Assembly (NCBI RefSeq): GCF_000336955.1
Contig: NZ_AOLI01000014.1
Location: forward strand, 1-35,783
Reading direction: 5' to 3'
Length of the DNA: 35,783 bases
Source: Haloferax larsenii JCM 13917
GTDB lineage: Archaea; Halobacteriota; Halobacteria; Halobacteriales; Haloferacaceae
Shown: in pieces, positions 31,615-34,481 of the stretch
Numbering within the stretch: position 1 is the first letter of the stretch
Layout: each line of letters begins with the position of its first letter
Program-made: the position numbers and the translations under genes
Notes under the pieces: generated by a model
What the model saw: only the letters and a program-made list of their open reading frames with translations
Told to the model about the DNA's origin: nothing
The model's database searches: none

Positions 31615-31682
31615 ATGAACGGCACGGGGGGACGTGGTATCGACCGGGGGCAGGCCGGAATGGGAACACTCATCGTCTTTAT
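31615..31682 (+). pseudogene. Archaellin gene, 5' fragment (interrupted by IS)
   Basis: ATG 31615 begins [20 protein letters not shown] then VFI when joined to the 3' part. [12 protein letters not shown] is the archaellin class III signal: the prepilin peptidase cuts before Gln and the hydrophobic stretch forms the filament core. After 22 codons the coding sequence stops mid-codon (AT|) at 31682, where an IS begins. Joining to base 33200 restores ATC GCG ATG and the sequence [12 protein letters not shown] in frame, so the insertion, not a mutation, breaks the gene. Confidence 0.9.
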
Positions 31683-31701
31683 GGAAGATTCAAGGCTAAA
31701 A

Positions 31702-31721
31702 CCCCGCCCTTCAGGGCGGGG
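31702..31721. repeat. Left-end hairpin of the IS
   Basis: CCCCGCCCT-TC-AGGGCGGGG is a perfect stem with 9-bp arms, 19 bases inside the left end. Hairpins in this position are what TnpA recognises in IS200/IS605 elements. Almost the same core (GCCCTTTAGGGCGGGGA) occurs at the right end. Confidence 0.85.
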
Positions 31722-31833
31722 ATACAGCCGACAACTCCTCCACTAACCACGCCCGATGGAAGTACTGGATATTCCACGTCCAGTCGTTGCTTTTAATATA
31801 CAATCTTCCATAACTGGTTATGAACACAGCCCG

Positions 31834-33099
31834 ATGCTGGAAACAACTCGCACATATCGAGCGAAAATCGTCAACCACCAGCAGGTGAGTGACGACCTCG
31901 ATGACTGCGGGCACTCAGCATCCAAACTGTGGAACGTCGCCCGATACTACACGCAAGGCCGATGGAACGACGACGGGGAAATCCCCGACGACGGCGAACT
32001 TAAATCCGAACTCAAGGAACACGAACGATATAGTGACCTACATTCTCAGTCAAGTCAGCGAGTTCTCGAAGAACTTGCTGAGTCGTTCACCAGTTGGTAC
32101 AAAGCACGCCAACGCGGAGACGAGAACGCCAACCCACCCGGCTACCGAAAACACGGCGACGAACACCCACGCTCCACCGTGACGTGGAAGCAGAAAGGAA
32201 TCAAGCACGACTCCAAGCACAACCAAATCCGTCTGAGCAAAGGCTTCAACCTGAAGAACCACCGCTCAGACTTCATTCTCACAGAGTACGAGACGCGACC
32301 GGACGTGACCGTGGAGAACATCCAACAGGTTCGAGCCGTCTGGAACGGCAACCGTTGGGAACTTCACCTTGTCTGCAAGGTTGAAATCCCGGTCGAGGAC
32401 GCCCCCGGAGACAATACGGCGGGCATCGACCTCGGTATCAAGAACTACCTCGCTATCGCCTACGACGATGGTGATGCGGAACTGTATCCGGGGAACGTGC
32501 TGAAGCAAGACAAGCATTACTTCACCCGTAACGAATACGGCACAGAAGGTGAGAACGGGGCATCGAAGCGTGCCCTTCGTGCCCGTCAGAAGTTGTCTCG
32601 GCGGAAAAATCACTTCCTGCACGCCCTCGCCAAGCACATCGTCGAGCAGTGCATCGACCACGAGGTCGGTCGTATCGCCATCGGTGACTTGAGCGAGATT
32701 CGCGAGGAGGACGGCAAGGCTCGGAACTGGGGGAAGCGCGGGAACAAGAAGCTCCACGGTTGGGAGTTCGACCGCTTCACGCGCCTGCTTGAATACAAGG
32801 CCGAGGAACACGGCATCCTCGTTGACCGAAAGAGTGAGCGAGACACGAGCAAGACGTGTTCGTGCTGTGGTCGGAAGCGTGACGCGAATCGGGTGGAACG
32901 TGGTCTGTACGTCTGTGAGTCGTGCGGGACGACGATGAACGCGGACATGAATGGCGCGGTGAACATTCGCAGAAAGATAACTCAGAATCCCCCAACTGGG
33001 GATATGAGTAACGGTCGTTTGGCACGGCCAGTAGCCTACCTGTTCAACCAAACCTCTGGGTCGTTCCACCCAAGAGAACAGGTAAGTTGCAAACCCTAA
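31834..33099 (+). CDS. tnpB: RNA-guided endonuclease TnpB (IS1341 type)
   Basis: TnpB is the transposon nuclease ancestral to Cas12; it uses an RNA from the element's right end to cut DNA. Start is MLETTRTYRAKIVNHQ at ATG 31834 (an upstream in-frame ATG at 31756 would add 26 residues of non-family sequence). The RuvC catalytic residues are all present: Asp199 (AGIDLGIKNYLAIA), Glu288 (IGDLSEIRE) and Asp371 (ADMNGAVNI). The zinc ribbon has Cys342/Cys345 (CSCCG) and Cys361/Cys364 (CESCG). Length, 421 residues, is normal, so the enzyme looks active. The gene body is less GC-biased than its neighbours. It ends 100 bases before the right end. Confidence 0.95.
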   Translation: MLETTRTYRAKIVNHQQVSDDLDDCGHSASKLWNVARYYTQGRWNDDGEIPDDGELKSELKEHERYSDLHSQSSQRVLEELAESFTSWYKARQRGDENANPPGYRKHGDEHPRSTVTWKQKGIKHDSKHNQIRLSKGFNLKNHRSDFILTEYETRPDVTVENIQQVRAVWNGNRWELHLVCKVEIPVEDAPGDNTAGIDLGIKNYLAIAYDDGDAELYPGNVLKQDKHYFTRNEYGTEGENGASKRALRARQKLSRRKNHFLHALAKHIVEQCIDHEVGRIAIGDLSEIREEDGKARNWGKRGNKKLHGWEFDRFTRLLEYKAEEHGILVDRKSERDTSKTCSCCGRKRDANRVERGLYVCESCGTTMNADMNGAVNIRRKITQNPPTGDMSNGRLARPVAYLFNQTSGSFHPREQVSCKP

Positions 33100-33219
33100 T
33101 ATCCCAACGCTCGGGAATCCTCGTCGCCAGACTCCGTCTGGCGGGCAACCAGAACGCTCCGCGTTCTGGTGACGCCCTTTAGGGCGGGGAGGATGTCAAC
33201 GCGATGTTACTGGTCGCGG
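33100..33219 (+). ncRNA. Putative TnpB guide RNA (omega/reRNA) region with guide
   Basis: The 3' end of tnpB plus the right end of such elements encodes the guide RNA, and a short RNA overlapping the 3' end of tnpB was reported in Halobacterium. The 5' end is unknown and probably lies inside tnpB. Three hairpins are visible: CGCCAGAC-TCC-GTCTGGCG (33125-33143), CCAGAACGC-TCC-GCGTTCTGG (33149-33169) and CGCCCT-TT-AGGGCG (33173-33186). The guide would be the flanking archaellin sequence from 33200 onward (CGCGATGTTACTGGTC...). Confidence 0.55.
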
Positions 33220-34481
33220 TAATCGCAAGCGGGACGCTCATCGATACGGGCAATGTCCTTCACGCGACGGCAGAACAGGCGGGACAAGAAAACACTAGTC
33301 AGGTGAAGAACCGACTTGACGTCATCGACGTTCTCGGCACGGTCACGAGCCAGAAAGAGGAGACCGACGGAATCGAGATCGAGGGCATTGGAGGCAACCA
33401 GACTATCGTCGATTCTGGTGCAGTACTCACAATTTCGCTCCGGTATGGTGATGGACGGGCCAATTTGACGAGCTCCGGTACTGGGACGCTTCAGCTCAAC
33501 GGCGGTGAGTCACTTCGCGTCGAGAAGGTCGATAGCTCGACTGTCCGAATCACGAACGTCGACTCGGGAGCGTCGATTTCGTTCGACCCAGCGGACAACC
33601 TTCAGTTGGAAGCTGAGGACGTAGAGAGTGATGAAGACTTCGTGTATCTCGAGTACACGTACGATGACCCTCACTACGGGCAGACGACTGAGGTCGTATT
33701 TGACATCGAAGACACAACCAAAAGCTCATACAGCGTCGAATTTGCGCCACGAACTCGGTCGTACGTCAGACTGGGGGAGTACACTCTGGAACCTGAAAAC
33801 ATCGCTGTCATCACCGACGGCGAATCAGTGACTGTCGACTCGGCATCTGGTGACCTCACTAACGGCGACGGCGACGTTCTTGTCGTCTCTGCGGGTGACG
33901 TGTTGACATTCTCTCCCGACGCCGACGCACAGTCGTTCAGTATCACACACGAGGCGAACGGGACGACGCTCACCGTCGACGCGGAAGGGTACCTGAATTC
34001 CACTGACGGGGACATCGTCCTCGATGACGACGGGAAGTTAGTCAGGACAGAGAACGACGGTGACAACTCGTTCTACAAACCAGCCGGTCGATACGTCTTC
34101 ACGCGAGGGTTTTTGAACCCCGGAGACAGCTACGTGCTGTCGGAAATCACGCTCACCGTCCGCCCCGGACCGAAAGCCAGCGGTATCGACCTCTCCGAGA
34201 CGACGATTTCGTTGCTGACACCCGATACCGCGGCCACGCTCGTCTACGGGTCGACGACGGTCGAAACACAGGAGTTCACGGCCGACGCGGTACACGACGA
34301 CGACAGCACGCATCCGGTGTTGAACGAAGACGACTTCTTCGATATCGTCATCGACCCGGGCGACGTCTCCCAGGGTTCGACCGTCATCATCGAGATGACG
34401 ACGCCTTCGGGCGCGACGACGTACGTGCGGCTCCGCGTTCCACGCCCGCTGGCATCGGAACAGACACTCAATCTGAAGTGA
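33200..34481 (+). pseudogene. Archaellin gene, 3' fragment
   Basis: This is the rest of the archaellin after the IS: I/A from the junction, then [29 protein letters not shown], the amphipathic archaellin N-helix. QVKNRLDVIDVLGTV follows, then a very long beta-rich surface domain (residues ~75-320 of the joined protein), and the archaellin C-terminus with LTVRPGPKASGIDLSE, HPVLNEDDFFDIVI and GATTYVRLRVP. Joined length would be about 449 residues, roughly double the common haloarchaeal archaellin. An ATG at 33204 could start a product lacking the signal, which could not enter the filament. Sequence beyond the break is intact to the TGA stop. Confidence 0.88.

Follow-up and report, generated by a model that had tools for sequence, protein, structure and literature searches.

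A TnpB-only IS200/IS605 element splits an archaellin gene of Haloferax larsenii JCM 13917 and would take its guide from it

The window analysed here is the whole 35,783-nucleotide stretch of Haloferax larsenii JCM 13917 DNA (contig NZ_AOLI01000014.1, positions 1 to 35,783). Near its right-hand end, positions 31615–34481 translate as the two halves of one archaellin frame with 1517 bp between them, and stops within the insert block any read-through. The features of the locus are these:

31219–34763, no strand: lineage-specific block holding the archaellin and the element; homology to the nearest syntenic congener stops at 31218 and resumes at 34764
31615–31682, + strand: archaellin 5' part, from translation: start codon, class III signal peptide and the beginning of the N-terminal helix; an in-frame stop precedes it
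31679–31682, + strand: TTAT, the insertion target (left cleavage site) and putative TnpB TAM; TTAT also precedes the left end of relatives
31683–33199, + strand: complete TnpB-only IS200/IS605 (IS1341-type) element, 1517 bp; ends taken from relatives of 74–89% identity with unrelated flanks
31702–31721, + strand: left subterminal hairpin, CCCCGCCC-TTCA-GGGCGGGG, from the sequence
31834–33099, + strand: intact tnpB, 421 aa, from profile matches and an alignment of 78 proteins
32975–33147, + strand: predicted omega-RNA scaffold, Rfam RF02656 sot0042 (80 bits, E 2e-20; gathering score 88)
33124–33174, + strand: twin-hairpin module of 51 nt, lying within the right subterminal hairpin and omega-RNA end, from the distance between stop codon and right end in relatives
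33188–33199, + strand: right end GGAGGATGTCAA (right cleavage site TCAA), from relatives
33200–33219, + strand: predicted guide CGCGATGTTACTGGTCGCGG, the same as the archaellin sequence beside TTAT in the empty site
33200–34481, + strand: archaellin 3' part, from PF01917 and full-length homologues: remainder of the N-terminal helix, a long central region and the C-terminal archaellin domain

Deleting 31683–33199 in silico leaves 449 residues and a stop (450 codons), ending NLK, with no internal stop; at the join, ATCGTCTTTAT is fused to CGCGATG. The downstream part alone matches PF01917 in a profile search (9.3e-16), and the insert matches guided_TnpB, NF040570 (4e-60). The first-pass annotation had read the locus as an archaellin split by a TnpB-only IS200/IS605 element, and the joined frame, the unbroken homologues described below and the guided_TnpB match bear this out; its further claim, that removing these positions restores the frame, is correct to the base. 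The element ends are unambiguous, with neither microhomology at either boundary nor a target duplication, and the boundaries cannot slide because the flanking bases on both sides differ from those at the element ends. Chance is not a serious alternative, since the same ends recur in over 30 separate insertions of this family. As this is a draft genome of 36 contigs, an assembly artefact or chimaeric junction has to be considered, but it is extremely improbable: both junctions lie exactly at the family ends, the frame rejoins, and only one full-length copy of the element is present in the genome, which leaves no second copy to mis-join.

The interruption falls inside the N-terminal hydrophobic helix, just past the class III signal peptide, and IAMLLV resumes downstream. 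The downstream piece, with an ATG at 33204, could therefore hardly be processed or assembled as an archaellin. The right end of the element (window 33188–33204) happens to supply a GGAGG about 11 nt upstream of that ATG, from which a truncated archaellin lacking the signal peptide might be translated. Rejoined, the frame has a class III signal peptide (its motif assessed by eye), the conserved N-terminal helix and the C-terminal domain. The annotation had named in advance two grounds for abandoning its reading, namely that relatives lack any gene with the joined sequence and that the joined frame contains a stop in unbroken homologues. Neither turned up: we found unbroken long archaellins in other genera, none of them from a close strain, of about 440–470 aa and 29–38% identity; they align over their full length without a stop, and their alignment is continuous across the junction residues GTLIVF-I-AM. 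Some genomes carry these long homologues as pairs.

Closer to home the gene has no counterpart. We found no orthologue in 14 congeners, where the matches are only the ends common to ordinary short archaellins; no orthologue or empty site above 38–39% identity in 170 genomes of the family and 372 of the order; and neither in a collection of genome contigs. With no empty-site relative found, the timing and direction of the insertion rest on the joined frame and the family ends. The nearest syntenic congener is 91% identical over 27424–31218 and then, after about 78 bp, resumes at 34764; it thus lacks the archaellin block entirely. In the stretch past the block (34764–34880 and 34916–35617 of the window, and 37400–40310 of contig C14) a repeat of about 117 bp recurs downstream on C14; small genes that we name by eye, as candidates, MazF/PemK-like and winged-helix-like adjoin it. 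The archaellin block thus borders a repeat-rich variable region. On sequence and distribution, the split gene reads as a divergent, lineage-restricted accessory archaellin. Such a gene may already have been dead, or never expressed, when the element arrived, making the insertion a neutral passenger in a decaying accessory block. We hold this to be possible though on balance doubtful: the gene is missing from congeners, sits in a lineage-specific block and has an N-terminus unlike the leader that other archaellins share with hardly any change, yet its joined frame has no stop or frameshift, and the signal-peptide motif and C-terminal domain are intact.

What of the archaellum itself? Two other archaellins, both intact, lie beside an apparently intact arl cluster on contig C8 of this genome (arl gene names were assigned by eye from translated frames), and a third is on C12. 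Since the arl genes, both operon archaellins and the third archaellin are intact, loss of motility is not expected. The first-pass annotation had also foreseen a likely effect on filament composition, and for that we find no support, the split gene being an extra, divergent archaellin alongside the intact arl operon and three others. Halorubrum lacusprofundi offers a parallel: strains without one of two archaellins still have functional archaella, and the two-archaellin strain is more motile (PMC7349177). Natural strains there differ in whether they have one divergent archaellin, and archaella are functional either way; the gene is absent in those strains, whereas here it carries an insertion. 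Nothing about archaeal motility is overturned by the split archaellin.

The element belongs to a well-populated family. A pattern search placed TTAT at the left end in 62 of 80 named relatives, and the base preceding it varies freely among the 62 (A 21, G 18, T 17, C 6). The target is therefore TTAT and not, as first annotated, TTTAT: the tetranucleotide stands and the fifth base does not belong to it. Among the right ends found in relatives, 66 of 70 are GATGTCAA. The IS608-like TCAA terminus and the absence of target duplication, both read from the letters, are supported. IS608 (ISHp608) has the TCAA right cleavage site, a target tetranucleotide 5' of its left end, hairpin ends and a TnpB, all of which our element shares; unlike our element, IS608 has its own TnpA and a TTAC target. 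Of the 372 order genomes searched, 247 carry a match to the family, relatives with the shared TTAT and GATGTCAA ends are spread across the order, and its past mobility is visible in these scattered copies. A viral origin was considered and rejected, no viral relatives having been found. Subterminal hairpins are present, terminal inverted repeats and a target duplication are absent, and tnpB encodes OrfB/RuvC and zinc-ribbon domains (PF01385, PF07282 and NF040570 all over cut-off), as in IS1341-type elements. A terminal-only copy, about 50 bp long, lies at C14:116352 in the same genome (locus L062, about 848–893); in it TTAT is followed by GAATTTTCAAGG and the right end is again GATGTCAA; such derivatives, called PATEs, have been described in Haloquadratum (PMC3119063). 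The likeness to the haloarchaeal IS1341 group (ISNph, ISHwa; PMC3119063) extends to the lone TnpB, the subterminal hairpins, the lack of terminal inverted repeats, a 4-nt target without duplication, and PATEs. It ends at the target, here TTAT, and at the right hairpin, which in the present copy is enlarged by a 51-nt twin-hairpin insert.

Across 78 aligned TnpB proteins (that of the window and 77 relatives) the RuvC aspartates D199 and D371 are invariant and the zinc ribbon is kept. The canonical RuvC-II glutamate is a glycine, Gly284, in all 78, which weighs against an active nuclease. The subfamily also has an invariant glutamate, Glu311, which lies 27 residues past the RuvC-II position in a WEF motif and may replace the missing one; a literature search found no published account of a Gly-for-Glu change in TnpB, so we infer the alternative catalytic residue from conservation only.

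The predicted omega-RNA, which presumably continues to 33199, resembles the haloarchaeal sense-overlapping RNAs of tnpB (sot0042, RF02656; PMC12558985) in lying at the tnpB 3' end, in position and in fold; it differs from them in scoring below the gathering threshold (80 bits versus 88) and in its extra hairpins near the guide end. The 51-nt insert there could impair presentation of the guide. For TnpB, the insertion target serves as the TAM and the flank past the right end as the guide. By this established logic the guide would be CGCGATGTTACTGGTCGCGG, and TTAT plus CGCGATGTTACTGGTCGCGG would be the rejoined archaellin. No other site with TTAT and the guide was found in a genome-wide 20-base search allowing up to three mismatches. 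The three archaellin paralogues agree with the guide at positions 1–7 and then carry 3–4 mismatches, including positions 8 and 10, and they have TTCAT in place of TTTAT. Targeting of the paralogues by this guide is rejected on TAM and mismatches, and TnpB should spare them. The split gene could receive the insertion because its phenylalanine codon is TTT, where the paralogues use TTC and so read TTCAT. Guide and TTAT together match the rejoined archaellin without a mismatch, and alleles that lose the element would therefore be destroyed if TnpB is active.

TnpB-derived regulators of flagellin, the TldR proteins, are a known precedent (PMC13418256). Might a domesticated, TldR-like TnpB repress the remaining archaellin genes with the guide it takes from this one? 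The guide does fall in the best-conserved archaellin codons, where the paralogues match at positions 1–7. We nonetheless regard the idea as highly improbable and have rejected it on the kept aspartates and the mobility of the subfamily. A TldR-type regulator would have lost RuvC catalytic residues and would hold a conserved guide to a filament-gene promoter, but this TnpB retains its zinc ribbon and the two RuvC aspartates; the subfamily is that of a common mobile element (247 of 372 genomes), though present here in single copy; the paralogues have TTCAT and mismatches at guide positions 8, 10 and beyond; and the guide is simply the sequence adjoining the insertion, differing with each insertion site. 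TldR shares with our case the company of a TnpB homologue and a filament gene (PMC13418256), but the present tnpB lies inside that gene, keeps its catalytic aspartates and takes its guide from the insertion site.

The twin-hairpin insert deserves description in its own right. In most relatives 52 nt separate the tnpB stop codon from the right end, against 103 here. The two hairpins of the module are perfect and have 3-nt loops; they read CGCCAGAC-TCC-GTCTGGCG and ACCAGAACGC-TCC-GCGTTCTGGT, with GGCA between them. Two elements of Halobacteriales archaeon YIM A00013 have a module at the same site (L174:2844–2890 and L183:2844–2889), with altered loops and with stems that are altered yet still paired (for example, C-G to T-A beside the first loop). 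Similar modules occur at the left ends of L122, L125 and L176, at the right end of L133 and within the tnpB frames of L134 and L238; further ones lie at L053:1507–1548, 3103–3151 and 3271–3315 and L051:959–1008, at the genome's TnpA and beside other tnpB genes. The spacer varies (about 4–8 nt), stem bases are conserved, and stem tops and loops change. We counted 13 modules in 399 kb of mostly TnpB-bearing loci against none in three shuffles, and one in 400 kb of ordinary chromosome (C19), a contrast of 13 to 1 that is indicative only, because the loci were chosen around tnpB. Tentatively, the 33124–33174 module may be one of an undescribed family of small paired hairpins, mobile or hypervariable, that recur in haloarchaeal IS200/IS605 elements (in terminal hairpins, omega-RNA ends, and tnpA and tnpB), disabling or rewiring them. 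The SMR-A elements of Haloquadratum target the same kind of palindromes, but differ in being about 110 bp long with terminal inverted repeats (PMC3119063); CGTC-tagged REPs (PMC3733652) provide a second comparison.

Modules of this kind bear on excision. The element has no TnpA, and the only Y1 (TnpA) transposase gene in the genome (C12:217273–217686, in L053) is interrupted by a stop codon where a twin-hairpin insert lies. That gene sits divergently beside a TnpB gene. With the sole TnpA so interrupted and the right-end hairpin holding its 51-nt insert, exact excision is unlikely in this strain. The suggestion that the archaellin could be restored in this way is thus weak, the more so as TnpB would be expected to cut restored alleles. 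A reversible switch, with precise excision frequent enough to be useful and the archaellin thereby turned on in some cells of the population, would have the perfect frame in its favour, along with the normally precise excision of IS200/IS605 elements and the strain-specific new insertions seen in Haloquadratum despite disrupted tnpA genes (PMC3119063). By analogy with that case, mobilisation may proceed by routes other than an intact TnpA. Against the switch stand the element's want of a TnpA and the internal stop in the only one available, the insert in the right-end hairpin, and a guide with which TnpB should cut the excised allele. We judge it very unlikely and, for lack of an intact TnpA, have rejected it as the main reading.

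Very probably, then, a TnpB-only IS200/IS605 element inserted 3' of TTAT in an accessory long archaellin gene, inactivating it, and its guide would favour retention. The non-autonomous element would have been placed there presumably by TnpA in trans, through a single-stranded intermediate, with probable loss of the archaellin product. Its omega-RNA would now end in archaellin sequence, enabling TnpB to recognise TTAT plus CGCGATGTTACTGGTCGCGG, a combination present only in gene copies without the element. Empty copies would be cut and then repaired from an occupied one, keeping the element in place. In a polyploid genus such cutting would favour fixation, much as on multicopy plasmids, where gene-drive behaviour of IS200/IS605 TnpB has been reported (PMC11870625).

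The insertion is an ordinary event of a known kind in what appears to be an accessory gene, and the guide and TAM situation, together with the twin-hairpin module, is most worth following. The locus would provide a base-exact natural case, in Haloferax, of a TnpB guide read from a host gene, in which a synonymous codon (TTT versus TTC) would decide which archaellin paralogue can be struck and later recognised. Haloferax is a polyploid and genetically tractable genus, in which one could test directly whether TnpB brings about fixation of an insertion over many copies of the chromosome.
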